Shown one piece after another: positions 8,082 to 46,988 of a stretch of DNA of 64,000 nt. The translations under genes and the position numbers were made by a program. Source of the DNA: a candidate division KSB1 bacterium (GTDB lineage: Bacteria > Zhuqueibacterota > Zhuqueibacteria > Residuimicrobiales > Krinioviventaceae); the NCBI GenBank assembly GCA_034521575.1, contig JAXHMJ010000005.1, positions 1,674,001 to 1,738,000 of the forward strand, read 5' to 3'. The notes beneath the pieces are model-generated. The model ran no database searches. It had not been told where the DNA came from and saw nothing but the letters and a program-made list of their open reading frames with translations. The stretch's first letter is position 1; each line of letters starts with the position of its first letter.

Positions 8082-11000
8082 TTATTTTAGCAATAAAAGC
8101 TTTCGGGTAAACTGTTTTTCATGATCCAGTCTTAGCTGATAATAATAAACACCACTCGAGACCGGTTCACCGGCGCTGCTGCCGGCGTTCCACATAATTG
8201 AGTGAATGCCTGCATTCATTTTGCGATCAATCAGTGTCTTGACCCGCTCTCCGCGGATATTGTAGATAATGAGTTCAACCCGGACATTTTTCGGCAATTC
8301 AAATCGAATGGTTGTTGACGGATTAAACGGATTGGGATAATTCTGATGCAAAGCCACACGCGTCGGCAGTGCAATTAGGGCCTGCGCCATTCCATACTCG
8401 GTTTCATAACCGTAACGGTCCACTTCCAGCAGTTTATAATAGTAGCGTTTGCCCGCCGTCACCTCGTTGTCGCGACAGGAATAAACACCCTGTTCGTTGG
8501 GCTTGATCATTTCGGGATTGATCCGGGTAAAACCGGAATTCTTATTGGCGCTCCTAAGCACATAAAATCCGGATGTGTTTACCTCCCTGGAGGTTTCCCA
8601 GGACACGACAACGTGGTTATCAATAGACTCTGCAGTAAAAGTTGACAGGTCCACAGCGTTCGGTGTGCGCAAGTGTACGTGCCAGCGCTCTTTGGTGTTG
8701 CATTCGTTATCCGAGACAACACACTCGACCACAAGCGCGGAATCCGGGAATTGTGCCTTGGTAAAGACCACCGGCAGCATCGGAGTATCTCCGGCAAAAA
8801 TATCATCAATCATCCAGGTATAATACACCGCATCGCCATTCGGATCAGAAGCTTCCACTTTGAAAGAGAGGGGTTGATTGTAATCAATCACAAGCACGTC
8901 CTCTTCCGGTTCCCGCAATGTGATTTCCGGACACATATTCTGAACACTGGTATGGATCATCACCGTACCGCTGTCGGCGGCGCCGAACTTGTCGCGGACA
9001 ATAAAGGTAATGCTATAATCACCTTCATATTCCATAGTCGGGGTCCAGGTGAACAGATAATTCTGAGCGGTATCAACGGTCGCGGATTCGGGCATATTTT
9101 TGAATTCATAATGCAGAGGATCATCATCCGCATCTTCAGCCCGGATGGAAATGTTAACCGTTTGTCCGGCTTCCACAGCTAAATTACGCGGCAGGGGCGG
9201 ACTAAATTCAGGCGCACTGTTGACCACGATTGCCGTATAGCTCACCTGAGATTCGATGGCGGCATTCTGCGGCTGCACATTGACTTGCTGCGCCCCCAGA
9301 TTGCCGGTTTGCCAGGTCACCTCGGCAATCCCTTGATTGTTTGTAAACGCGGGCAACGGTTCCTGGATCGACCCTGTTCCTTTCACCACATCAAATTGAA
9401 TGCCTTCAGCTTCCAGGACGCGGTCGAACACATCCATGGCTTTGATCTTGAGCGGTATCTCGGAAAACGGTCGAACGGTTTCCACATCCGCTGACAGTTT
9501 TTGCAATTTAATGGTTCGCGTGCTCTGAACATAACAATTGAACGTCACACTTCCATAACTGCCGGCGGTGGCGCGAATCTTGTGCAATCCCGTGACCGTA
9601 CCGGTTTTGAACACAACCGCAGCCATGCCGTTCGCATCTGTCTTGACCGGATTCAGGGTCAGCCAGGCGCCCTCGCCCACCAAAAGTTTAAACTCGACAG
9701 AAATATGGGAAATAGGTTCGCCGTTCTTTTCCGTGACCTGAACCGCAAATGAATCCGGCATAGTTTTATTGATCAGCCCGATTGTTGAATCACCGGACTG
9801 TTTGCTCACAAGACCATCGGCGGGTGGAGAAGCATAGGCCATAAAATATGTATCCGTGGGAATGCCGGTAACATTGGCGCGCACATGCTGCTCTCCCAGA
9901 ACAGGTCCCAAAACCCAATGCACGCTGACGCGCCCTGTGCTGTCCGTCCGTACCGGTTGATTTTCCTGAATACTGCCGCCGCCGTCTTCGATGGCGAATG
10001 TCACCTCAACATTTTCTACCGGATGATTCCATTCATCCAGAACCCGCAATCCAATGGGATCCGGCAGCATTTTTTCCTTTTCATAATACTGGTCCGTTCC
10101 AAAGGGGACCACGTGATGCGGCGGACCGTTGATAAAAGAGATTTCGGTTTGTACCACGATCTGATTATTGACCAGCGCCCAAACCATCACGGCTCCTACG
10201 TTGGTTGATGCCACTGAAGCCTGTATGCGTCCATTGGCATCCGTTGGTGAATCGGGTTGATCAATAAACACTTCCAGCCCGCTCGCCTGCAGCGTGACCT
10301 GCAGACCGCTCAACGGATTTTCAAATTGATCTTTTAATTCAACGACGATATTGGATTTATCCTGACCATTCGCCAGGATATCCGTAGTTGCCGTCATGCT
10401 GCTGTTTTCAGAATCCGGTTCTCCCGGCAGAGCTTCCACCGTATATGAAATCGTTCCGGGTTTTAGAGGATCCACGCCGTCATCCGACGTGACACGGATT
10501 GTACTGGTGCTCGGCGCATCTCCGAGATACACCTGAGCCGCGGCAATGCCATGCCGATTGGACAGGACATTATGACTGGTATACTGTCCGTTAATCAGAC
10601 AGTTTCCGGATTCGATCGTAAAAGTGACCGGATGCCGGGACACCGGATTGCCGTCATCATTCAGAACCAGTATTTTCAAAGAATCCGGCAAAACAGTTCC
10701 CACTTGCCCGGTGAATTCATCATCCGAATTCACGCGCTGCATGGAAACAGCCAGACTTTTGCGTCCGGAGGCAAAAAACTGCATGGGAGAGCCTTTCAGG
10801 CTTTTTCCGTCAAAGCGGGCCATGGCCTCGAATACATAATTATTTTCGCCATAATCCGTTCCCAATGTGGGTCGGACAGAGGCCATACCGTTTTCATCCG
10901 TATGAACCGTTATAGTGTTTTCACCATTAAAACGGGCTCCGGAGAATGTCATAAACTGGACGGGCCGATCCTCAAGTCCAATGCCGTTTTGATCCACGAT

Positions 11001-14000
11001 CCGCACCTTGAACGGCTCCGGCAAAGGTTCATTGATACGGCCTTTTTGATGATTCCCGCTTACATATTTTAATTCATAGGGGTCACCCGGACCGGTATAG
11101 GCGGTAAAAATCAGGGGACTGCCTATCAGGTCTCTGCCTTCATACTGGCTGCTCACCGCAACTTTTTGTTCATGTTCAGTCGGACCCATGGTATAGGTCA
11201 CAGCCACCTGTCCCCAAACATCCGTATTGCGCGTCAGGCGGGTCTGGCCGGAAAGGGTGCCGTTACCCTGAACCACCTCATACGTGACAGGATGACCGGA
11301 GATCGTATTCAGAAAGGAATCGGTCACGGTTATCTTGAACGGCTGCAACAGGGGCTGGCCGGCATCACCGGACTGGGTGTCACCGGAGACTTTCATAATA
11401 CGCGCCGGCGGACCGGGATTGCCGGTTGCTGTAAAAATGACCGGAGATCCGTCCAGGTCTTCAGCGGTGGCCACGACCACGTTTTCACCGGCCTTGGTTC
11501 CCAGTTTCAAACGTACGGAGGCATGTCCGTCCGAATCGGTTTCTACCAGCACAGTCTGCAGACCCTGAATGGTTCCGCCCCCCTGAGTTACAGCAAATTC
11601 CACATCGAATCGACGCACCGGATTTCCAAAGGTATCCAAAATTTGTATGACAAACGATTCAGGCAGCAATTGTCCCGCGGTACTGGTTTGCTGATTGCCG
11701 CTGACCATGACAATTGAGGTCGGTTTCCCGCCTGTCGCCGATGCATAAAATACAATGGGAGAATTCTGCGCACTCGGTACTACGGCATGGAACACATACA
11801 GTGAATCGCCGATAGAGGAGCCCAGTGTAGGAGTGACTCCCGCAATACCCTGGTTGTTGGTCTGAACCTGTACCGTATCCTGGCCGGAAAAATGGCCGTC
11901 GCCGGACATGACGATAAACGTAATATTCTCGCCTTCCACCGGATTGTCCTGCATATCCGTCAACTTTACCGTTAGCGGTTCATCCAGTTCTGAACTGATA
12001 TGTCCGATCTGGTCATTACCGGAAATATAATTTATTTTCCGGTTTGGCTCACCGGCGGAAGCATTGAATGTATAGGGACTGTTTTGCAGTTCGGTGCCGT
12101 TGTAAAAAGAAGAGGCTCGCAGTGCATTCGGCCCGATCTGCGGCCCCATCTGCCAGTTCACCTCGGCATAGCCGTTATTATCTGTTTGCACATTGACAGA
12201 GGCCGCCGTGTCTGAATCGGTCACACAAGCGCCCAGTCCCTGCTGAATGGTGTATTGAACCGTATGACCGGAAATCGGATTGCCGTATATATCAGTGATT
12301 TGAGTGATAATCGGCTGGCTGAGCGCCCTGTTGATAAATCCGGTTTGGTTGTCACCGGACACATAATTCAGGCGATAGGGATTCGCCGGCTGCGGTGTGA
12401 CGGTGATGGTTTCCGGGGAACCGGCCAGATGCAGTCCGTCCTGAAGCGAAGACACCCGCAGAGAATTTTGTCCGTCAGCGCCGCTGACCGTACCCATCAT
12501 CCAGGCCACACTGACCAAACCCTGTTGATCCGTTGTTTTGGAAAGGGTCGAATTCCCGGTTTGATCCAGGTCGCCGCTGCCTTGAGTAATATCAAAAGTA
12601 ACCTGATGCGCGGGCACCGGCTGATCATCAGCCGACAACACTTTGAATGTAACCGTCACTTCCTGCCCGACAACCGCACCGGGTGTGCCAACCGGAGAGA
12701 CCCGGATTAGCTGGTCAGGAACCTGTTCAACAGGACGAACCGTGAGTGTCTGATTGGTGGTCACACTTTCAAAAGTCCGAACATCTCCATTCGGGAGTTC
12801 AACCTTGACATCCACGCTGGCCGTTTGTCCGGCGCCAACATGCTGTACCATGGAACTCTGACTCTGATAGCCATTGTTTGCCAATATCTCCCGATACCCC
12901 AGCAGACTGTTCGCATCATCCAGGCCGCCTGCCTGATAAACCCAGATTTTAGCGCCGAGTCCCACAGCAATACCGTTATCATTGACGACTTTGACCTTGA
13001 CAAAGCTATTGCTGCCGCTATAATCGTTTCGGAAAAGATGATTTCGGGAGTACAGCTTACCATCAGTGATCCCGCCCCGGGCCACAGCATAAATATCGAG
13101 ATTACCGTCGTCATTCACATCAAATACACCCGAACCACGGCCGTCCGCAAAGAAGGCTTCAACGCCGCTGTTCGAGCCGGGCGCAAACGCGCCGTTCCCG
13201 TCATTAAAATATAATCTGGCCGGCTTGTATTTATCAATCCCGAACAAATCAATATCACCATCGTTATTCCAATCCCCGGTTAAAAGCCCAAAGGTCTGAA
13301 GGGAATTCACCCCGAGATTGGAAATATTAACAAATGATCCGTTGTTGTTTTGAAAAACTTCAATACGTGAGTTCGCTCCGGCATCGGAACCGACCACCAT
13401 ATCCAGATCGCCATCATTATCCACATCACACAGGCTTACCGAGTTCACACCGGCGGCCAGGGTCAGGGATGCCATGGAGGAATACCCGCCGTTCTGTGTG
13501 TTACGTGCGATATCAACACCGTCATTATGACAGATGACCAGATCCTGGTAACCATCATTATCCAGGTCTCCCGCCGTGACTGCCGCGTAACTTTTACCTG
13601 AAGAACGAAAGGCTTGTAAAATTTGTGTATTGACCGTAAAGTTGGCATTGCCGTCATTTAAATACATTTGGTGAGGCGATCCGCCATTGACCACAATAAT
13701 ATCCAAATCACCGTCTTTTTCTATATCCGTTAATGTGGCGCCTTTGGAATCCGAAGCGATATTGGAACCCAAACGTCCGGTTGCATTTGAAAAACTGCCG
13801 GTTCCGGTATTTAAATACAGATGATTGGGTTCATTGGGATAAGAGGAACTGTGATAGTTCATGACAAATATATCCTTGTCGCCATCCGCATCAAAATCAC
13901 CCGCCAGCGAGGCGTAAGAATAGGACGGATCATTCACACCACGATCCGCGCCCAATTCGTCAAAACCTCCATTCTGAGCCATAAACAAAAGATTTTCAGT

Positions 14001-14831
14001 GTCATAATCTTTGGCAAAAAAGTGTGGTGTGTACAAATCAGAGGCCCCGTCGGCATCGAAATCCGAAATCAAGACACCCTGGGCGCCCACTTTTTGATGC
14101 GCCATTTCAGCCGAGGGATCAGCAATATTGGTAAACGGATAATTGCTCGCAGGTTTATATAGTTTCAAATCTTTATAGATGACGCCGGCGTTACCGGAAC
14201 CATAAGTATCATCTTTACCCAAAAAGATGTATCCAAATGTTTCAACTTGTCCCTCGAACTCCTGCCGGGCCAACGTTTCTCCGTTCAGAGTCAGCCAGAT
14301 TTCAGTTGTAGTCCAGATAATCCGAAAGGTATAATCAGTATTGCTATTCCAATTCCGACTGTTGATACGGGTTTCCCGGCGTTCATGGGGCGCTTTTTCT
14401 CCGTAAAAGGAAGAGGAGATAAACTTGAAATCGATATTGTATTGATTGACCAGTTTTTCATCGGATTTCAGCATCACGTATGAACCCGGAGAGGGGTCGA
14501 CATCAAAAAAGGACCCGTCCCCTCTGGAATACAGAGAAATGGGGACCCAGTCATCCGTCACCTCCGGCATCATGTTGGTCAATGTGATTTCCATGGTGCC
14601 TTCCGGCGGCAGGAAATGATTCAGGTCAATCCGCAATTGCGCATTATCCCGATCGGCGGTCCAGCCGTTATTTGAAAAACTGCCTCCAAACGTGGATATC
14701 TGTCCGATGGAATTCTGATCATTGTTTCGCAACGCATGCGAATGTACAAGCACGTCATGATCCGGTTGCGCATATATAAGAGAAGTGATTATCAGCAAGG
14801 ACATCACCAGAAAAAGACATGAGCGTATCAT
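8082..14831 (-). CDS. Giant T9SS-exported protein: FG-GAP repeats, ASPIC/UnbV domain, eleven Big_1 Ig repeats
   Basis: 2249 residues with an intact frame. Residues 1-21 are a signal peptide ending IYAQ. About 22-225 form a LamG-like jelly-roll. About 230-595 hold seven FG-GAP/VCBS calcium loops such as DFDADGDKD and DVDNDGDLD. About 600-695 match ASPIC/UnbV (VGLGAKIWVYQAGG, LPNGDVRTFESV). About 700-1865 hold eleven invasin-type Big_1 repeats of ~105 residues, many opening with VSGDxQxG and containing GNPVxxxxVxF. Cadherin-like (~1868-1960), PKD-like and Fn3-like modules follow. The last ~95 residues are a T9SS sorting domain (NYPNPFNPSTTIRFELP ... SGVYYYQL ... KLLLLK). It is probably a long surface-attached stalk or adhesin. 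A GGAG ribosome site lies 5 bp before the ATG. Confidence 0.92.
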   Translation of the reverse strand: MIRSCLFLVMSLLIITSLIYAQPDHDVLVHSHALRNNDQNSIGQISTFGGSFSNNGWTADRDNAQLRIDLNHFLPPEGTMEITLTNMMPEVTDDWVPISLYSRGDGSFFDVDPSPGSYVMLKSDEKLVNQYNIDFKFISSSFYGEKAPHERRETRINSRNWNSNTDYTFRIIWTTTEIWLTLNGETLARQEFEGQVETFGYIFLGKDDTYGSGNAGVIYKDLKLYKPASNYPFTNIADPSAEMAHQKVGAQGVLISDFDADGASDLYTPHFFAKDYDTENLLFMAQNGGFDELGADRGVNDPSYSYASLAGDFDADGDKDIFVMNYHSSSYPNEPNHLYLNTGTGSFSNATGRLGSNIASDSKGATLTDIEKDGDLDIIVVNGGSPHQMYLNDGNANFTVNTQILQAFRSSGKSYAAVTAGDLDNDGYQDLVICHNDGVDIARNTQNGGYSSMASLTLAAGVNSVSLCDVDNDGDLDMVVGSDAGANSRIEVFQNNNGSFVNISNLGVNSLQTFGLLTGDWNNDGDIDLFGIDKYKPARLYFNDGNGAFAPGSNSGVEAFFADGRGSGVFDVNDDGNLDIYAVARGGITDGKLYSRNHLFRNDYSGSNSFVKVKVVNDNGIAVGLGAKIWVYQAGGLDDANSLLGYREILANNGYQSQSSMVQHVGAGQTASVDVKVELPNGDVRTFESVTTNQTLTVRPVEQVPDQLIRVSPVGTPGAVVGQEVTVTFKVLSADDQPVPAHQVTFDITQGSGDLDQTGNSTLSKTTDQQGLVSVAWMMGTVSGADGQNSLRVSSLQDGLHLAGSPETITVTPQPANPYRLNYVSGDNQTGFINRALSQPIITQITDIYGNPISGHTVQYTIQQGLGACVTDSDTAASVNVQTDNNGYAEVNWQMGPQIGPNALRASSFYNGTELQNSPYTFNASAGEPNRKINYISGNDQIGHISSELDEPLTVKLTDMQDNPVEGENITFIVMSGDGHFSGQDTVQVQTNNQGIAGVTPTLGSSIGDSLYVFHAVVPSAQNSPIVFYASATGGKPTSIVMVSGNQQTSTAGQLLPESFVIQILDTFGNPVRRFDVEFAVTQGGGTIQGLQTVLVETDSDGHASVRLKLGTKAGENVVVATAEDLDGSPVIFTATGNPGPPARIMKVSGDTQSGDAGQPLLQPFKITVTDSFLNTISGHPVTYEVVQGNGTLSGQTRLTRNTDVWGQVAVTYTMGPTEHEQKVAVSSQYEGRDLIGSPLIFTAYTGPGDPYELKYVSGNHQKGRINEPLPEPFKVRIVDQNGIGLEDRPVQFMTFSGARFNGENTITVHTDENGMASVRPTLGTDYGENNYVFEAMARFDGKSLKGSPMQFFASGRKSLAVSMQRVNSDDEFTGQVGTVLPDSLKILVLNDDGNPVSRHPVTFTIESGNCLINGQYTSHNVLSNRHGIAAAQVYLGDAPSTSTIRVTSDDGVDPLKPGTISYTVEALPGEPDSENSSMTATTDILANGQDKSNIVVELKDQFENPLSGLQVTLQASGLEVFIDQPDSPTDANGRIQASVASTNVGAVMVWALVNNQIVVQTEISFINGPPHHVVPFGTDQYYEKEKMLPDPIGLRVLDEWNHPVENVEVTFAIEDGGGSIQENQPVRTDSTGRVSVHWVLGPVLGEQHVRANVTGIPTDTYFMAYASPPADGLVSKQSGDSTIGLINKTMPDSFAVQVTEKNGEPISHISVEFKLLVGEGAWLTLNPVKTDANGMAAVVFKTGTVTGLHKIRATAGSYGSVTFNCYVQSTRTIKLQKLSADVETVRPFSEIPLKIKAMDVFDRVLEAEGIQFDVVKGTGSIQEPLPAFTNNQGIAEVTWQTGNLGAQQVNVQPQNAAIESQVSYTAIVVNSAPEFSPPLPRNLAVEAGQTVNISIRAEDADDDPLHYEFKNMPESATVDTAQNYLFTWTPTMEYEGDYSITFIVRDKFGAADSGTVMIHTSVQNMCPEITLREPEEDVLVIDYNQPLSFKVEASDPNGDAVYYTWMIDDIFAGDTPMLPVVFTKAQFPDSALVVECVVSDNECNTKERWHVHLRTPNAVDLSTFTAESIDNHVVVSWETSREVNTSGFYVLRSANKNSGFTRINPEMIKPNEQGVYSCRDNEVTAGKRYYYKLLEVDRYGYETEYGMAQALIALPTRVALHQNYPNPFNPSTTIRFELPKNVRVELIIYNIRGERVKTLIDRKMNAGIHSIMWNAGSSAGEPVSSGVYYYQLRLDHEKQFTRKLLLLK

Positions 14832-29679: not shown

Positions 29680-30917
29680 ATGTTAAACCCAAAAGAATTT
29701 TACAGACGTCTGGATGCATTGTTGGCAACCATCCGTATCGAAAAATCGGATGGGAATTTACTGCCCAATATTGTAAAAACGCTGGTCTCCAATTTTAAAG
29801 ACACCCTTCAAATCGATAAAGGGCGAATTTATGAACGACGCGCGAGCGAGCTTGTTCTGGTATACCCCAAATTGCCGGCGGAAGAAAGCATGTATGCCAC
29901 CCGCATCCCCGTAGACACGCCCATCATCCAGATGGCGATCACCAATCGCAGTTATATTTACGATCAGCCGCCGTTAAACACTGCGTTTTACAACAGCAGC
30001 AAGAAAACTCCGGATATGTGTACGGCCATTTGGGTTCACAATCAGGATAAAGAATGGATGCTGGTCTTTTCGCTAAAGGAAGGTTGGGTGCGAGAAGAGA
30101 TCAGTCTGTTTTTAAATTCAGTGCGCACCTCTATTAACTACCGTATCTTTACTGAACTCATGGAAGACCGGCTGGCACAGGCGCAAGAGATACAAAAGAG
30201 TCTGCTCCCCAAGAACAAATTTCAAATCGAAGGCTATGAAATTTTCGGGCGGTCGCAACCTGCAGAAATTGTCGGCGGTGATTTTTACGATTATTTTGAA
30301 TATGAAAAAGACTTTTTTGGCGTAGCCCTGGGAGATGCCAGCGGACACGGTATTCCCGCGGCGCTGCTGGTCCGGGATGTGGTGATCGGATTGCGTATGG
30401 GGCTGGCCATGGAAATGCGGCTGGTGCAGACCGTCAAAAAACTGAATACAGTCATTCAAAAAAGCACCTATTCAACCAATTTTGTTTCCATGTTTATTGG
30501 TGAGGTGGAACAAGACGGTCACGTTTTTTATATCAACGCAGGGCACCCGGCGCCGTTTTTGATCAAAGACAAGGAAAGCGTGGAACTGCCGGCCACGGGC
30601 ATCACGCTCGGATTTTTGCCGGACATCCCGTTGTCGCGTTCTCATATCCATATGCCGCCGTCCAGCATTCTGGTCATGTACTCGGACGGTATCATTGAGC
30701 GCACCAACGAAGCCGACCGAACAGTTTTGGGTACAAACGTCTGAGAAAACTGGCTGAAAAACACAAACAAAAAACAGCCAGGGAAATTGTTGATTTTATT
30801 TTCGATACGGTATACGAATTCGGCAACCGCACCAACTGGGACGATGACGCAACCGTGGTGGTTTTGAAACGCTCCGCGGTTTCTGAGGACAAACCTACTT
30901 TAACTCAATCACGGTGA
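29680..30917 (+). CDS. PP2C-family serine phosphatase (RsbU/SpoIIE type), one frameshift
   Basis: The N-terminal ~165 residues look like a GAF-type sensor. A linker helix (AQAQEIQKSLLPKNK) leads to a PP2C/SpoIIE domain with EIVGGDFYDYFE, VALGDASGHGIPAALL, NAGHPAPFLI and YSDGIIERTN, which carry the metal-binding aspartates. The frame stops at 30744 after ADRTVLGTNV. Adding one T to the TTTT run near 30737 restores FGYKRLRKLAEKHKQKTARE and NWDDDATVVVLKR, the expected last metal-binding motif, to a stop at 30915-30917. Such phosphatases act on anti-sigma-factor antagonists in partner-switching networks, but no such partner is adjacent. The corrected end overlaps the convergent phosphoesterase gene by 23 bp. 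Confidence 0.85.
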
Positions 30918-32346
30918 TCTCCGGGGGGCAGAACAGGCGTATGGGTACCCATGCGGTCCCCAGGCCCCGATTCACATACAAAGTTGTGTTGTTTTCCTGA
31001 AACAATCCCTGAGAATACATGCTTTCCATTTTATTCCGCCATACCACCGGCGATCCGACAAACGGCAGCCTGATTTGTCCGCCATGCGTATGTCCGCTCA
31101 GCTGCAAATCCACGCTGCTTTCCCGACTGTATTCAAAGGCTTTGGGCGAGTGTGCCAATAAAATTTTGTAAATTGACACTGAAATTTGATCCGCCATGAC
31201 AGGCACGGCCTGCTCTTCATAATTGAAATCAATCCAGCGGGCGGGCTGGGTGCCGCGCTCATAGCCTTCAAAATCGGAACCAGCCAGGGTATCGCCAGCC
31301 TGATCAAGTATACGCACATCATCAAACTGATTAATGCCCTGGCCGGCGCTCCAAAACCCGACGCTTCCTCCGTTCAGGCGGGTGATGGATGTATCAAACG
31401 CCGAAATGGCCCATTGCTCCGGCTGTTGTTCGCCCTCCGGCCAGATCACCGCGTTGATCCGGGTTTGACCGGCCGTATGTGTTACACGAATTTTGAACTG
31501 ATACCAGGTTTCAGCATGGACAGACAACGTCTGAACCGTCTCCCCCCACACCCGGGTATTATGAGGAGACAAAACAAACTCATCCTTGCCGGCACGCCTG
31601 CGGATGCGGTAAAAATGATCAAAGCCCTTGTCCATTTGTGAATAAAACGTGACGCCGATCCCGGACCAGTTTGGATTGAACTGACGGAATCGACCGTAAA
31701 CCGTATAGTTTTTCCATGACTGATCAAATCGCATCACATGAGTATATGAATTACGAGATTTGGCATTGGTCTGCAACACCTGATTGTCACGATCTGTGTT
31801 GATCCAGAAATCCGATACATCTTTCAATTCGGGGTCATCCACGCCCAGAAGCGCCAGGGAATTCCCGTTCACACTAATTCGTTTGATCCGGTTGGACAAT
31901 ACAGTAACACCAATCCGCTGCATTTCCTTCAGCAACAGATCGCTTTTTTCCTTATCGTTGCTGATATCGTTATTACCGCGGCACAGATAAACACCGTCTT
32001 TGGCCTGCAGGGTTTCCATAAATTTAGAGACATGCGCCAGGGTGGTTTCAAAATCATTTCCTGTGTTTTCCCAGAGTTCCCGTTTTAAAAACAGATCTCC
32101 GGTCACGGCAATGATATCCGGACGCAGGCTGTTTACTTTTTGCACAATTTTTTTTTCAAAGGACGATAGCCTGTAGATGTGTAAATCCGAGATATGCACA
32201 ACCCTGACCGGGTGTTTGATCTTTTCAGAGTCGATGGAAATCTCTTCAACAGAGATACCCGTTCGTTCAAACACAAAACCATAAACCAACGCCCCGGCCA
32301 CAATCAAAATCAACAAAAGAATAGTAATCATAACAGGTTTTTGCAT
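30895..32346 (-). CDS. Membrane-anchored metallophosphoesterase with an inserted beta-sandwich domain
   Basis: 483 residues. One membrane helix (5-26) precedes a calcineurin-like (YkuE-type) domain split in two. The first half has HISDLH (D54, H56), TGDLF (D84) and CRGNND (around 123-127). The second half has LLAHSP (H399) and SGHTHGGQI (around 418-425). Residues 180-386 are a separate ~207-residue jelly-roll/LamG-like module (IGVTFYSQMDKGFDHFYRIR, GGSVGFWSAG, FDDVRILD). The usual GNHD motif reads GNND, so the catalytic histidine is replaced by Asn. Family members hydrolyse phosphodiesters such as UDP-diacylglucosamine or other lipid/nucleotide substrates. Whether this one is active is uncertain. 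Confidence 0.85.
   Translation of the reverse strand: MQKPVMITILLLILIVAGALVYGFVFERTGISVEEISIDSEKIKHPVRVVHISDLHIYRLSSFEKKIVQKVNSLRPDIIAVTGDLFLKRELWENTGNDFETTLAHVSKFMETLQAKDGVYLCRGNNDISNDKEKSDLLLKEMQRIGVTVLSNRIKRISVNGNSLALLGVDDPELKDVSDFWINTDRDNQVLQTNAKSRNSYTHVMRFDQSWKNYTVYGRFRQFNPNWSGIGVTFYSQMDKGFDHFYRIRRRAGKDEFVLSPHNTRVWGETVQTLSVHAETWYQFKIRVTHTAGQTRINAVIWPEGEQQPEQWAISAFDTSITRLNGGSVGFWSAGQGINQFDDVRILDQAGDTLAGSDFEGYERGTQPARWIDFNYEEQAVPVMADQISVSIYKILLAHSPKAFEYSRESSVDLQLSGHTHGGQIRLPFVGSPVVWRNKMESMYSQGLFQENNTTLYVNRGLGTAWVPIRLFCPPEITVIELK
31194..31814 (-). other. In-frame 621-bp domain insertion inside the metallophosphoesterase
   Basis: On the coding strand CGGAT occurs at both edges (31814-31810 and 31193-31189). 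Deleting 621 bp between them rejoins DVSD with QISVSIYKILLAHSP in frame, a normal phosphoesterase sequence. The insert encodes residues 180-386, a beta-sandwich unlike the host fold. Its last strands (DFEGYERGTQPARWID) look like the usual opening of such domains, which suggests a circular permutation. Confidence 0.6.
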
Positions 32347-40011: not shown

Positions 40012-40244
40012 GTGAATCATTTTGACACAGTGTCTATTTTTAAAGCAATCAAATGGAATTGCTGTATATATTAATGATAAATAATACTAAACCCTTTTGT
40101 AATTTTCATATTAATTTACTATTTTTATATAACTTATTAGACGCTTTTTTTCTTTGCGATTTGCAAACGTTTGGCCTAAAACATGCATGGGTTCTCTATG
40201 CTATTTCTGTTAAAAGTAATCCTTTTCAAAATACGGGGCAACAT

Positions 40245-43200
40245 ATGAAACATAGTAAGCTGTTTTTTGTCACATTGATTCTGATACTCGGTATTGTTGG
40301 TTCGGTGCAGGCAAGTCATTTTCAGCCGCCATCCAGTAATTTCCAGCCGATGAATATTTATATTATTCAGGCTGCATATCATGGAATGTCGTTAACCGCA
40401 GGTGATGAAGTCGCTGTCTTTGACGGTTCTCTCTGTGTGGGCGTTGCCGTATTATCCGAGCCGCCCACGGCATCAAGCCCGGCTCTTTTGAACGCCTACA
40501 AGCATGACGACGGAGATGCGGGGTTTACCGGGGGAAATCCCATGACATTTAAAATGTGGGATGCCAGTCGTTCACAAGTATATACTCTGAGTTCAGGAGA
40601 AGTGCAATTTTACGATCCCAACACAGGCTCTCCCATCAGCCCCGTACCCTTTGAGGGACTGGGAACCGCTGTGGTGGGGCTGAGCGGCGGTGTCACCGAT
40701 TATATGTATCTGACCACGCAGACCACCACCGGGGGGTCCACATCCCCTGCACCGGGAACCCATCCCTATCATTACACGGAAACCGTTTCTATTTCAGCCC
40801 TCCCTGAATCGGGATATGAATTTGATTACTGGGAAGGAGACGTTGCGGATACCCAGTCCGCTTCAACAACCATCACCATGACAGAAGACGAGACCGTCAC
40901 GGCACACTTTTCCTGTATTGGCTATACGGTCACCATGGGCGTTACCCCGGCGGGTACAGGCGCCACCGTGCCCACTGTCGGAGATACCAATGTATGCGCG
41001 GGCAGCGAAATCACAATCAAAGCCACTCCTATAAGCGGATACGAGTTTGTGCAATGGTATGGCACCGGAATTGCCGACAGCTACAGCGCCAACACCACGG
41101 CAACCATAACAGCAGATCAATCCATCACCGCTGAATTTCAGCCGATAACAGCGGATCAGTATACCCTGAACATGGATGTCAACAATTCAACCCGGGGCTC
41201 GACCACCCCCGCAGCCGGCAGCTATTCCATCAGCCGGGATTCCGTGGTCACCATAACCGCCTCAGCCAATGCCGGATATCGGTTTGTAAACTGGAGCGGC
41301 GATGTGGCGGATCCAAACAGTGCGACGACCACAGTGACCATGAACAGCAACAAAACCATTGTCGCCAATTTCGAGCAGGAAGAATATGATTTAACCCTTT
41401 CATCCAATCCCGGTGCCGGCGGATCGACTTCTCCTTCGGCTGGAACCTACACTTACGATGGCGGACAGATTGTAAGCATCGCAGCAAACCCGGTCGACGG
41501 ATATGTGTTTCAGGGATGGTCCGGAGCCGTAGAAGACCCTAACGCTCAGTCAACAACGGTAGTGATGAACGCGGACAAGGTGGTTACCGCGAATTTTGCG
41601 CCCAGTGACCATTACTTGACCTTGCAGGTCAATGAACCAGCATGGGGCACCACCAATCCGTCACCAGGAACCCATGCCTACGGCGACAATTATGTGGTAT
41701 CCCTGTTTGCCGTCCCGGCCAGCGGATATCAGTTTGTCGGGTGGCAGGGAGATGTCGCAGACCCCAATGATCCATCGACCAGCACAACCATGACATCAAG
41801 CAAAACAATCACCGCTTATTTTCAACGGCAGCAGGTCACGTTGACCATCGATGACACGCCCGGCGGCAGCACCACACCGGTTGCCGGAGGCCATACATAC
41901 AACTCGGGAGATGTGGTCAGTATTTCTGCAACCCCGGCTTCCGGATATTATTTTGTCCAATGGAATGGAGATGTAGCCGATCCCAATTCTGCAAACACCA
42001 CAGTGATCATGGATGAAGACAAAACCATTTCAGCCACCTTTGCAGAGATGGCAACCTATTCGGTCAACATAAGCGTGATGCCGAACGGCAGCGGTACGAC
42101 GGTTCCCGCGCCCGGAACGCACGCTATTGAACAAAACACACAAATCAATATAGAAGCCATTTCCAATGCGGGATATCATTTTTCCCGCTGGGAAGGTTCC
42201 GGCATTGCTGATCCGTTCGATTCAACAACCACGCTCCAGGTGGATGCAGCCAAGAACATTATTGCTCATTTTCAGTCCAATCAAACCACCCAGTATACCT
42301 TAACCATGGACATCAATCAAAGTGGTTGGGGCGCTACACAGCCTTCGGTCGGATCGCATCAATTCGGCGAAGGCGACGTGGTCACTGTGAGAGCCATACC
42401 GGAAAGTGGTTACCGATTTGCAAACTGGAGCGGCGCTGTCACTGATCCCAACAGCGCTCAGACCACTGTGCTGATCGATGGTGACAAAACCATTACGGCT
42501 AATTTTGAAGCATTGGATGAATACACAATCAGTGTGCTTCCTCCCGATCAAACCGACCGCGGCAGCACCACTCCCGGTCCCGGCAACTATACCCGTTTTG
42601 AGGGAGAAACGTTTGAAATTACAGCCACAGCCAACACGGATTACGAATTTGTAAACTGGAATAACAACAGCAGCCTGACCAATCCGACCCTGTCGTTTCA
42701 GGTCAATTCAAATCGCAGCTTAAAACCTTATTTTCAACTATCATCCACCGTTGAACTAACCATGCGGATGAATAACAACAGTTACGGCAGCGTATCTCCA
42801 GGTATTGGCAAACACACTTATACTCGTAATGACGTGGTCAACGTCGAAGCCTTTCCGAATCCGGGTTTCAGTTTTACACATTGGCAGGGAGATGTTGCCC
42901 ATACCAATCAGGCGCAGACCACGGTAACCATGGATGCCAGCAAACTGGTCAAAGCCTATTTTGATCACCTCCAGTACGATCTCACGCTGCAGGCATCTCC
43001 GTCCGCCGGGGGTGATGTAAATCCGTACACAGGCACCAAACAATATGATTCCTGGAGCGAAGTTCAGATCGAAGCGGTGCCGGCGCCGGGTTATAAGTTT
43101 GTCGGCTGGACCGGGGATGTAACCAATTCGTCCAGCGCCACAACAACGGTCACCGTGGACCAAAACAAGGCGGTAGCGGCCAACTTTTCTCAAATTAATG

Positions 43201-46200
43201 AATATACACTGACCCTGAACGCTTCTCCATCCAGCGGCGGCACAACCCAGCCTTCTGTCGGTTCGCATACCTATGAGAAAGACGAGACAGTGACAGTTCG
43301 GGCATTCGCTGCTGCGGGTTATCAATTCTCGCACTGGCAAGGCGATGTTGCCAATCCGTCATCGGCAACAACAACGATCAACATCACAGCGGACAAGCAA
43401 ATAACAGCGGTTTTTGAAGCGGACCAGCCGAATGAATACCAATTGACCGTTCAGGCGAATCCCGCAAACGGCGGAACCACCACGCCCCAGGCCGGGGTTT
43501 ACACCTATTCAGCCGGGACTTCTGTGCCATTGACTGCCGTTTCAAATGCGGGTTATACGTTCAGCAGCTGGAGCGGAGGCGTAGACAATCCGTCCAGCGC
43601 ACAAACGCATGTGGTCATGAACAGCAATAAAACGGTCACTGCTAATTTTGAAGCCGGACAAACCACCTATACCTTTACCATTGATGTGTACCCTGAAGCG
43701 ACCGGCACTACCCAGCCGGTTCGCGGGCAGCATCAGATAGTAGCGGGAACCACACTGACCATTATTGCAAATCCGGCTCAGGGGTATAAATTCGAATTCT
43801 GGACCGGTGATGTCGAAGAGCCTTATAATGACACAACACGCATTACCATTGATGCGGACAAGGGCGTCATCGCGCATTTTCGTGAAATAGAAGGCACCCG
43901 GCGGACATTGTCCATTGCCGCTAATCCTACCGACGGCGGAACGGTCATTCCGGCGCCCGGAAAACACGAATACAACAGCGGCGCCCAGGTGATGGTGCAG
44001 GCATTGCCCTGGCCCGGTTATCAATTCACCACCTGGCAAGGGCCGGTACAGCAACCGGACAGCAGTACGACGTCCATCACCATGAATCTGGACCACTCGA
44101 TCGCGGCGAACTTTCAGCAGGCGACGGGTCAGGTTTTTCTGACTATGCAGATAAATCCGGAAGGAGGCGGATTAACCGGTCCGGCTGTCGGCCAGCATTC
44201 ATTTGCCGTCAATGAAAAAGTAAACATCACGGCGGTTCCGACCGAAGGATACGAATTCTCACATTGGACCGGTGATGTCAATGCGATGGACAAGTCTTCG
44301 ACCTATATCAGAATGAGTTCCAACAAGACCGTGAGAGCGCATTTTACAACCGAACAAACCAGCAAAACCACATTAACGCTTTCGCATATTCCTGTAAACG
44401 GAGGCAGTACAACTCCGACAGCCGGTACGTACACCGGTGACAAAGACCGTGTGATCCCGATCAGCGCAAAAGCCGCATCCGGTTATGAATTTATCGGATG
44501 GCAGGGTGATGTGACAGATCCCACAGACAGCACCACCACGGTTGAGCTGGACCGGCATAAAAGCATTGTGGCTGTCTTTCGTCAAAAAGACATTCCCACT
44601 TCGATTCTAAGTCTGAGTGTCAGTCCCATTGATTACGGAACCACAGCGCCCGCAACCGGTATTCATTCTTATCAAGTGGGTGAAGTCGTCACGATAACCG
44701 CATTGCCGTATGAAGGCTATTATTTCAAAAAATGGATAGGTGAGGTCGCCAATCCCAACAGCCCGACAACAACCATCCATATGGAAAACAACAAATCGGT
44801 AACCGCGGTCTTTGAAAAGGGCGAGGCAGAACAGTTTACTCTGGAAATGATTGTCAATCCATCCGGAGCGGGAGTTACGGCTCCTGCAGTCGGTTCGCAC
44901 CAGTACCGCCAGGGAGAAACCGTCAATATTACCACCATTCCGTCCCCCGGTTTTGAGTTCACCGGCTGGAGCGGTGGTGTGGCTGAGGCCCAAAAACCGA
45001 CAACTGCTGTTGAAATGACCGGCAACAAACTCATCATTGCGAGTTTCAAGGCAGTTCAGCCGACAAGGCATACACTGACAATCGCGCTGAATCCGGATCA
45101 GGGCGGCATCACCGTACCCATGGCCGGTACGTACACGCTGAAAAAAGACAGTGTCATGACCGTAAAGGCGGTTGCAACCGCAGGCTATCGGTTCCTGGAA
45201 TGGAAAGGCGACGTGACGGACACCGACACCTCGGTCACCCAGGTGCTGATGAACAGCGATAAAAACATCACGGCTCGTTTCATCAAAGATATGTACACAC
45301 TGCAGATTAAAGCCAGTCCCTATGAAGGCGGCAGCACCACCCCGGTTTCGGGCGATACGATGGTCGTTTCCGGTGAAACCGTTGTGCTCGAAGCAAAACC
45401 GAAAAAAGGATTCAAATTTGCCTTTTGGAGCGGCGATATCGAAGACAATCTGAACCCCACTACCGTCGCGTTAACCGAGGACATGAACATTATCGCCAAT
45501 TTTGTTCAACAGGATGAAAACATCCAGACCCCGGAGATTTTCGGATTGTCGGATGCGTTCAGAAATGATGTACTGCATTTTCAAATCCATAACGCACTCA
45601 GCAACCTGGGCCACAACCTGCAATTCCAGTTTGACTGGGGTGATGGAAACCGTTCCGACTGGGTAGAACTCAACTCCCAGAGTGAGAACAATATCACCAA
45701 AATCACCTCGCCGAACGGAAACAGCGGCTTGCCGGGCACAGGCAATCTTTTGGATTATGAATCAGGGACCCGTACCTCGGTTACATTGACAGTAAAAGGT
45801 GGAACCTATAATCCGGAAAAACATGCGATGCTCGGCGCTGACCCGGCCACAGGAACAGATGCCTGGGATATCTTTAATCAAATTGTGGATTGTCGCGGAA
45901 CCATACAGCCCATAAATGAACCGAATGAACCGCTGCAGCTGACATTATCCGGTCTGGATCCGGACAAACGCTACACCCTTGCATTCTTTTCCGATCGCAA
46001 CAATTTCGGCTGGGATCGCGCCTCTGTTGTCACTTTGAAAGGAGCGGAAGAATTTATCAACAACAGTTCGCAGGGCAAGGATCAGTTTGGGCAATCTCTT
46101 TATACAGGAGCCCGGTCCGGCTCTGTCAAACTTCCGTCCGACAATTCCCAAACCGGCTATGTGGCGCAATTCCGAAACATTGCCGGCGGTAATGACGGAA

Positions 46201-46988
46201 AAGTCACACTTTCAATCGATTTTGGCGGAAGCATGGGCCATGAATACAAAGGCAAGCTGGCGAGTGCGCTGATGGTCAAAGAACTGGATCAATCCGGCGT
46301 TCCGTCATTCACAGCTTATAATGATCTGGCCTGGTCAGAAGATTTTTACAAACACAAGTATCTGGCTTCGGGCAGTTATCTGATCCGCGTCAGAGCCCGT
46401 TGCAAAACCCATCAGGACGTGTTGTCCGAGTGGTCGGAAACGCACAGTGTCATTGTGAGCGGATGTTTGCTGAGCACCCGGGTTGCTCCGGAAGGCTCCG
46501 GATACATCCAGAAAATGCCGGATCAACCGGATTATGCGTACAGCACTCCGATCACATTACTGGCCACACCGGCAGAAAATATGGTGTTTGATCACTGGAA
46601 CGATGATCCAACGGATTCATTGAGCACCAAAGTGATTACGCTGAACAATCACAAAACGATTACAGCACATTTCACCTATCCGTCCGCGGTAGAAGAAAAA
46701 ACAGTGCCGACGGAATTTGCGCTTGAGCAGAACTATCCCAATCCGTTCAATCCCACAACTGAAATCCGGTACGCACTGCCCGGTCCCGAGCACGTGATTC
46801 TGGATATTTATGATCTGCGCGGACGACATGTCAAACGCTTATGGGACGGACGCCAGACCGCCGGACACCACAAACTGCTCTGGAACGCGACAAATAATCA
46901 GGGACTGAAAGTGGCGACGGGATTGTATTTTTACAGATTAAAGGCAGGTGATTATACCGACGTCAAGCGCATGATACTTTTGAAATAG
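40245..46988 (+). CDS. Giant T9SS-exported protein with 22 divergent InlB B-repeats
   Basis: The start at 40245 follows an ACGGGGCA site and gives the signal peptide MKHSKLFFVTLILILGIVGS; an upstream in-frame ATG (40053) adds 64 residues of AT-rich spacer translation. 2247 residues. About 23-150 form a distinct N-terminal domain (SLTAGDEVAVFDGSLCVGVAVL). About 150-1755 hold 21 InlB-type repeats of ~75 residues with the consensus GGxTxPxxG...Y..GxxVxIxAxPxxGYxFxxWxGdVxDpxsxxTTVxMxxxKxxxAxF. Then comes a PKD-like domain split by an insertion (~1806-2029), a 22nd repeat and a T9SS domain (NYPNPFNPTTEIRYALP ... GLYFYRLKAGDYTDVKRMILLK). It is likely a surface adhesin or stalk. Confidence 0.92.
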   Translation: MKHSKLFFVTLILILGIVGSVQASHFQPPSSNFQPMNIYIIQAAYHGMSLTAGDEVAVFDGSLCVGVAVLSEPPTASSPALLNAYKHDDGDAGFTGGNPMTFKMWDASRSQVYTLSSGEVQFYDPNTGSPISPVPFEGLGTAVVGLSGGVTDYMYLTTQTTTGGSTSPAPGTHPYHYTETVSISALPESGYEFDYWEGDVADTQSASTTITMTEDETVTAHFSCIGYTVTMGVTPAGTGATVPTVGDTNVCAGSEITIKATPISGYEFVQWYGTGIADSYSANTTATITADQSITAEFQPITADQYTLNMDVNNSTRGSTTPAAGSYSISRDSVVTITASANAGYRFVNWSGDVADPNSATTTVTMNSNKTIVANFEQEEYDLTLSSNPGAGGSTSPSAGTYTYDGGQIVSIAANPVDGYVFQGWSGAVEDPNAQSTTVVMNADKVVTANFAPSDHYLTLQVNEPAWGTTNPSPGTHAYGDNYVVSLFAVPASGYQFVGWQGDVADPNDPSTSTTMTSSKTITAYFQRQQVTLTIDDTPGGSTTPVAGGHTYNSGDVVSISATPASGYYFVQWNGDVADPNSANTTVIMDEDKTISATFAEMATYSVNISVMPNGSGTTVPAPGTHAIEQNTQINIEAISNAGYHFSRWEGSGIADPFDSTTTLQVDAAKNIIAHFQSNQTTQYTLTMDINQSGWGATQPSVGSHQFGEGDVVTVRAIPESGYRFANWSGAVTDPNSAQTTVLIDGDKTITANFEALDEYTISVLPPDQTDRGSTTPGPGNYTRFEGETFEITATANTDYEFVNWNNNSSLTNPTLSFQVNSNRSLKPYFQLSSTVELTMRMNNNSYGSVSPGIGKHTYTRNDVVNVEAFPNPGFSFTHWQGDVAHTNQAQTTVTMDASKLVKAYFDHLQYDLTLQASPSAGGDVNPYTGTKQYDSWSEVQIEAVPAPGYKFVGWTGDVTNSSSATTTVTVDQNKAVAANFSQINEYTLTLNASPSSGGTTQPSVGSHTYEKDETVTVRAFAAAGYQFSHWQGDVANPSSATTTINITADKQITAVFEADQPNEYQLTVQANPANGGTTTPQAGVYTYSAGTSVPLTAVSNAGYTFSSWSGGVDNPSSAQTHVVMNSNKTVTANFEAGQTTYTFTIDVYPEATGTTQPVRGQHQIVAGTTLTIIANPAQGYKFEFWTGDVEEPYNDTTRITIDADKGVIAHFREIEGTRRTLSIAANPTDGGTVIPAPGKHEYNSGAQVMVQALPWPGYQFTTWQGPVQQPDSSTTSITMNLDHSIAANFQQATGQVFLTMQINPEGGGLTGPAVGQHSFAVNEKVNITAVPTEGYEFSHWTGDVNAMDKSSTYIRMSSNKTVRAHFTTEQTSKTTLTLSHIPVNGGSTTPTAGTYTGDKDRVIPISAKAASGYEFIGWQGDVTDPTDSTTTVELDRHKSIVAVFRQKDIPTSILSLSVSPIDYGTTAPATGIHSYQVGEVVTITALPYEGYYFKKWIGEVANPNSPTTTIHMENNKSVTAVFEKGEAEQFTLEMIVNPSGAGVTAPAVGSHQYRQGETVNITTIPSPGFEFTGWSGGVAEAQKPTTAVEMTGNKLIIASFKAVQPTRHTLTIALNPDQGGITVPMAGTYTLKKDSVMTVKAVATAGYRFLEWKGDVTDTDTSVTQVLMNSDKNITARFIKDMYTLQIKASPYEGGSTTPVSGDTMVVSGETVVLEAKPKKGFKFAFWSGDIEDNLNPTTVALTEDMNIIANFVQQDENIQTPEIFGLSDAFRNDVLHFQIHNALSNLGHNLQFQFDWGDGNRSDWVELNSQSENNITKITSPNGNSGLPGTGNLLDYESGTRTSVTLTVKGGTYNPEKHAMLGADPATGTDAWDIFNQIVDCRGTIQPINEPNEPLQLTLSGLDPDKRYTLAFFSDRNNFGWDRASVVTLKGAEEFINNSSQGKDQFGQSLYTGARSGSVKLPSDNSQTGYVAQFRNIAGGNDGKVTLSIDFGGSMGHEYKGKLASALMVKELDQSGVPSFTAYNDLAWSEDFYKHKYLASGSYLIRVRARCKTHQDVLSEWSETHSVIVSGCLLSTRVAPEGSGYIQKMPDQPDYAYSTPITLLATPAENMVFDHWNDDPTDSLSTKVITLNNHKTITAHFTYPSAVEEKTVPTEFALEQNYPNPFNPTTEIRYALPGPEHVILDIYDLRGRHVKRLWDGRQTAGHHKLLWNATNNQGLKVATGLYFYRLKAGDYTDVKRMILLK
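45659..46334 (+). other. In-frame 672-bp domain insertion inside the PKD-like domain of the InlB-repeat protein
   Basis: CTGG occurs at both edges (45659-45662 and 46331-46334), 672 bp apart. Removing 672 bp rejoins FDWGDGNRSDW with SEDFYKHKYLASGSYLIRVR in frame, which is a normal PKD-like domain. The insert encodes a separate beta-sandwich (LTLSGLDPDKRYTLAFFSDR, GYVAQFRNIAGGNDGKVTLS). The stretch TAYNDLAW at its C-terminal end looks like the usual opening of that domain, so it too seems circularly permuted. Confidence 0.6.

Follow-up and report, generated by a model that had tools for sequence, protein, structure and literature searches.

How does a beta-sandwich come to lie in the middle of a phosphoesterase, and what might it be doing there? 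The question is raised by a gene in the 64,000-nucleotide stretch of candidate division KSB1 DNA analysed here (hereafter, the window), which belongs to a 5.26 Mb genome in 5 contigs. The gene is a single, unbroken open reading frame of 483 codons (1452 bp), the features of which are collected in Table 1. A preliminary description of the DNA had placed 207 codons of foreign, LamG/jelly-roll-like sequence between the two catalytic halves, and had attributed their presence to a clean, discrete recombination event at a short direct repeat, CGGAT.

Table 1. Positions of the phosphoesterase gene, its parts and the two CGGAT copies in the window (aa, amino acid positions in the encoded protein).
Feature	Position in window	Strand	Basis or remark
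Whole gene, 483 aa: metallophosphoesterase with inserted lectin-like domain	30895..32346	-	ORF, ortholog alignment
N-terminal transmembrane anchor, aa 3-26	32269..32340	-	AlphaFold helix H3-26; orthologs also hydrophobic there
Catalytic N-half, aa 45-178 (D54, H56, D84, N125), ending in GVDDP (aa 168-172)	31813..32214	-	Pfam Metallophos, invariant residues
Predicted ConA-like beta-sandwich insert, ~aa 180-373 (~194 residues)	31228..31809	-	Boundaries from alignment with insert-free paralogs
Putative permuted segment, aa 351-373 (GDTLAGSDFEGYERGTQPARWIDF), matching the first strand of free-standing relatives	31228..31296	-	Structural and profile comparison
Catalytic C-half, aa 374-483: H399 (LLAHSP), GHTHGGQ 418-424, conserved C-terminal PPEIT	30895..31227	-	Orthologs, Mre11 match
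CGGAT copy	31189..31193	-	Not a domain boundary; 8 copies in gene
Second CGGAT copy	31810..31814	-	Chance

The enzyme itself is readily recognized as a metallophosphoesterase. Pfam Metallophos (PF00149) matches aa 48-137 only, with 41.1 bits against a cut-off of 21.5 (E 3.5e-10), and the DxH, GD, GN(H/N)D, H and GHxH motifs are all present: SDLHI at 53-57, GD at 83-84, GNND at 124-127, LLAHSP ending at 401 and GHTHGGQ at 418-424. The metal ligands D54, H56, D84, N125, H399, H419 and H421 are invariant across 21 sequences. When the enzyme part of the AlphaFold model is compared with known structures using VIA-align, Mre11-type nucleases are retrieved with a Z score of 18.9 and a match that reaches residue 483. 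Catalytic motifs, an N-terminal membrane segment and the C-terminal PPEIT region are shared with YkuE/YaeI-type calcineurin-like phosphoesterases; these, however, lack the inserted domain, and insert-free paralogs of this type co-occur in the same genomes. The protein is not a member of the YaeI equivalog PRK11340 (NCBIfam; 120.9 bits, cut-off 188). Most orthologs carry 1-3 positive charges ahead of the N-terminal helix and several carry none, a weak topology signal from which the body of the protein may lie outside the cytoplasm, anchored by that helix.

The neighbouring genes are of the housekeeping kind (zwf, pgl, cysE and a SpoIIE-type phosphatase) and offer neither a functional link nor a clue to the substrate. 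The SpoIIE-type phosphatase gene (29680-30890, plus strand) contains an apparent frameshift near 30730, with an in-frame stop at 30744; its conserved C-terminus, AEKHKQKTAREIVDFIFDTVYEFGNRTNWDDDATVVVLKR, runs on in another frame and is intact in relatives, and so the gene could be broken or could contain a sequencing error. Elsewhere in the window lie two large proteins: one of 2311 aa (40053-46988, plus strand) that carries at least 22 divergent InlB B-repeats (Flg_new_2) and whose C-terminal sorting domain is FlgD-Ig / type IX-like, and a surface protein of 2249 aa (8082-14831, minus strand) with FG-GAP, ASPIC/UnbV and Big_1/invasin repeats, its tail again being FlgD-Ig type IX-like.

Sequence searches leave the region between the catalytic halves blank: no Pfam family covers the ~194 residues and no relative is found in the PDB. 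The closest approach is the 3-keto-disaccharide hydrolase family PF06439 (DUF1080), which is matched by one of 16 inserts (E 0.014) and for which the gathering score is missed. The structural model is more informative. An AlphaFold2 model of the full protein, built on an alignment of 11 rows (the alignments were generally shallow, at 11-12 rows), has a mean pLDDT of 84 and a pTM of 0.82, with 13 strands in the stretch from residue 181 to residue 357 and pLDDT mostly 80-95 in the insert. With residues 177-351 as the query, VIA-align gives CBM66 (4azz) as the best match (Z 15.6 and rmsd 2.4 over 143 residues); thrombospondin C-domains, galactocerebrosidase, ERGIC-53 and plant lectins come next, at Z 13-15. 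From a whole-model Foldseek ranking, which consisted mostly of lectins and galectin-like viral domains with poor rmsd, only CBM66 was taken. As modelled, the insert has the two-sheet jelly roll of the ConA-like lectin/glucanase fold, and is a concanavalin-A-like beta-sandwich.

CBM66 is the levan-binding module of Bacillus subtilis. The insert shares its beta-sandwich fold (4azz, 4b1m), as it does that of ConA-like lectins, and differs from it in three respects: the resemblance is one of fold only (13% identity), the insert carries strand 1 at its end, and it sits in an enzyme loop rather than being appended. Judging from the model, the insert is probably carbohydrate-binding, with the proviso that sharing a fold does not demonstrate sugar binding.

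The displaced strand became apparent from relatives in which the domain stands alone. When a collection was searched with four close inserts, ten KSB1-type orthologs came back, along with one protein of another kind: L062, a multi-domain protein of 1593 aa from a Thiohalobacter metagenome-assembled genome (a binning error is possible); among 274 genomes of the class around it, no free-standing copy other than L062 itself was found. Other KSB1 families provide weaker free-standing relatives, in the form of the C-terminal domains of PQQ-propeller proteins of ~750 aa. These proteins share a homologous core with the insert (up to 43% identity) and differ from it in having the canonical strand order and no enzyme around the domain. 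The free-standing domains have the order [DFE..(8)..P..W] [F.V...N.VL ... FDDL.V], and the PQQ-propeller proteins terminate right after FDN(V/I)KIT; in the phosphoesterase insert, it is [F.V ... FDDL.V]-GDTLL-[DFE..(8)..P..W]. A further free-standing-type relative, from another family of the same class, is a contig-end fragment that is 56% identical to the L062 domain (L084; G031 contig C85, 6173-6319), and is a possible in-phylum source of the domain.

Three comparisons bear on this change of order. Structural alignments of the insert begin at residue 16 of CBM66 and, in plant lectins, at about residues 17-21. Those of the modelled L062 domain, the N-terminal stretch of which is partly of low confidence, begin earlier: at residue 1 in these lectins and at residue 7 in CBM66. 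In profile-profile comparison (hhalign), the score is 157.9 for the original order, 156.5 for the core by itself and 177.0 once the order is restored; none of 200 shuffled tails reaches the restored-order score (mean 157.5, sd 1.3, maximum 164.1). Finally, a matrix built solely from seven 14-residue insert tails scores highest immediately ahead of the core in 11 of 12 free-standing proteins; in the twelfth, that site ranks second (example score: 22.9 versus 4.0 bits). These counts are not independent, because the PQQ proteins are related. Two of the picks are weak (1.9 and 6.3 bits), and four end in F, not W. A simpler HMMER test of the gain from permutation was not significant (640 versus 629 +/- 9 for shuffled sequences). 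Homologous segments thus occur in rotated order with respect to relatives, and a circular permutation of the insert, in which the strand that was originally first has become the last, is well supported by sequence and model comparison.

The age of the insertion was approached by searching for the whole protein in 60 related genomes and for the insert in 82 genomes of the KSB1 phylum. There are 24 insert-bearing genes in 23 of the 82: in 20 of 22 genomes of the host's order and in all three from one additional family of the class. None of the other 57 genomes of the phylum has an insert-bearing gene. All orthologs, which are roughly 35-45% identical, carry the insert at the identical site (one copy, in G003, is interrupted by a contig end). 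Genome G010 contains two insert-bearing paralogs, L055 and L061. Insert-free YkuE-like genes are common in the phylum and often co-resident (G002, G004, G006-G009, G013, G019, G022, G027, G032). In a tree of the enzyme part only, 21 insert-bearing and 19 insert-free sequences are fully separated (UFBoot 100), and the KSB1-phylum genomes yielded no gene that belongs to the insert-bearing clade yet lacks the insert. The insert-less alleles that the preliminary description had suggested seeking among YkuE-type homologs are therefore missing from the clade; the insert-free genes are paralogs. Since no insert-free member was found, a single insertion on the stem of the clade is most likely. Within the genome the insert is single-copy (the only other match, E 2.9, is unrelated), ruling out a mobile or repeated element. 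A phage or plasmid origin was likewise rejected: the protein has no PHROG match and the free-standing domain no plasmid match.

Both parts of the protein appear to have been maintained together. Mean pairwise identity is 40% for the insert and 43% for the enzyme, and pairs that are more alike in one tend to be more alike in the other (r 0.76). The closest pair yields dN 0.075 and dS 0.571 for the insert (dN/dS about 0.13), 0.073 and 0.500 for the N-half, and 0.063 and 0.379 for the C-half. The insert contains 22 invariant residues, including N199, H203, S236, D243, R247, R249 and H262. These similar identities and dN/dS values, alongside the invariant metal ligands and insert residues, indicate that the insert is under purifying selection, as are the enzyme halves.

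On balance we favour the view that an ancient, permuted ConA-like domain was inserted into a YkuE/YaeI-like two-metal phosphoesterase and has since been vertically inherited within candidate division KSB1, probably as a glycan-recognizing cap; a recent arrival is not what the sequences suggest. The sandwich, of a secreted type, sits in a loop that follows the GVDDP strand and precedes the helix running to the metal-binding H399. The original first strand would follow the original last strand via the GDTLL turn, such that both ends of the inserted domain would meet at the old strand 1/strand 2 loop. Permutation would thereby bring the domain ends together, which is the geometry needed for sitting in a host loop. 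In folds of the host's type, metal ligands lie at the C-terminal ends of strands, and a domain in the loop after the GVDDP strand would consequently lie beside the active site, where it might serve as a lid or substrate clamp. Such a cap could recognize a glycan or glycolipid bearing the phosphate ester that the enzyme cleaves; a glycan-bearing phosphoester is the simplest reading of the modelled lectin-capped phosphoesterase. More tentatively, and at clearly less than even confidence, we suggest that these proteins may be lineage-specific, glycan-directed extracytoplasmic phosphoesterases, in which permutation enabled the insertion and the lectin serves as a lid that selects the substrate, a phosphorylated glycan or glycolipid of the envelope.

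Other accounts of the origin fare less well. Recent recombination between two CGGAT repeats, placing the domain into this genome's gene, has practically no remaining likelihood. The two copies do lie 621 bp apart, as the preliminary description had it, and deleting the sequence between them preserves the frame. However, CGGAT occurs 8 times in the gene, the insert is present in all orthologs, including those from other families of the order, and it is under purifying selection. The repeat is also wrongly placed. The insert-free paralogs read GVDDPH..(helix)..ILLAHSP, with LAGVDDPHLYRTHDVAAAMRSVPPGEFTILLAHSP at the position where the insert-bearing gene has LLGVDDPEL-[domain]-NYEEQAVPVMADQISVSIYKILLAHSP, so that the true junction falls directly after GVDDP; the CGGAT-bounded piece includes NYEEQAVPVMAD, which aligns with an enzyme helix of the insert-free relatives and would be deleted by a cut there. 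The longest word common to both junction zones is 7 bases, a length equalled or exceeded by 448 of 2000 random zone pairs in the window. From the sequence comparison, then, the repeat is a matter of chance and not the mechanism. Of the preliminary description, the separation of the catalytic halves by unrelated residues and the jelly-roll character of a domain within a membrane-anchored phosphoesterase are borne out, respectively by the motif positions with the blank in Pfam and by AlphaFold with VIA-align; its 207 codons do mark an insertion, the extent of which was overstated by the enzyme helix. The circular permutation is something that the preliminary description had overlooked. It could alternatively be illusory, the C-terminal DFE..P..W segment being a linker whose likeness to the first strand is convergent. 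It is a short segment, some members lack part of it, and the HMMER result would fit such a linker, yet the profile-profile gain of 19, the placement of the tail-matrix sites and the missing first strand at the insert's N-terminus in structural alignments make this improbable.

With regard to function, the insert might instead be a structural or dimerization module without a ligand, kept solely for the sake of folding and protein contacts. Many of its invariant residues are W, G, Y or F, as in a fold core, and no carbohydrate genes adjoin; set against this are the seven invariant polar residues listed above and nearest folds that are carbohydrate-binding modules and lectins (bearing in mind that likeness of fold does not establish binding), and we regard a purely structural role as rather unlikely. 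A role in lipid A synthesis, as an LpxG-type UDP-2,3-diacylglucosamine hydrolase with an added domain, is less probable still. LpxG of Chlamydia is likewise a membrane-associated, calcineurin-like enzyme (PMC4807358), and the LpxG equivalog NF033458 (NCBIfam) matches with E 9e-30; KSB1 also makes LPS, with LpxC in 70 of 82 genomes and LpxI in none of the 82. Nevertheless, the score of 104.1 bits falls far below the equivalog cut-off of 350, excluding membership, and the Chlamydia enzyme lacks a comparable insert. In 74 of 82 genomes, including the host (gene at C5:568790-569470), there is also a distinct LpxH-like protein, about 250-300 aa long (these proteins score below cut-off, as does a Bacteroides control), so that a lipid A role for the phosphoesterase is unlikely to be needed. 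Moreover, the insert-bearing enzyme is restricted to a single order plus a single family, whereas LPS synthesis is phylum-wide. The LpxC frames are themselves unusual: throughout the phylum they are about 470-480 aa (e.g., G000:C5:735307-736197), longer than LpxC alone, and possibly represent a fusion with a second domain as in Bacteroidota.

The ancient insertion of a permuted domain thus remains our preferred reading, and of its elements the permutation is new and of more interest than the insertion itself. To our knowledge, natural domains that are both circularly permuted and inserted in an enzyme are uncommon. Circularly permuted jelly rolls and inserted domains are known separately; their combination inside a metallophosphoesterase appears to be new here, and searches of the open-access literature found no work joining a metallophosphoesterase and a concanavalin-like insert. 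Concanavalin A versus favin and the Fibrobacter 1,3-1,4-beta-glucanase, as cited in PMC2395249, are naturally permuted members of the same fold class and stand-alone proteins, whereas the KSB1 domain lies inside another enzyme. The pieces for a reconstruction are all present: an enzyme free of the insert, a free-standing domain in unpermuted order and some two dozen orthologs with the insert. They provide a natural test case for whether permutation, by joining the ends of a domain, lets that domain fit a host loop, and they predict, for a phylum without cultured physiology, a new sugar-phosphate activity.
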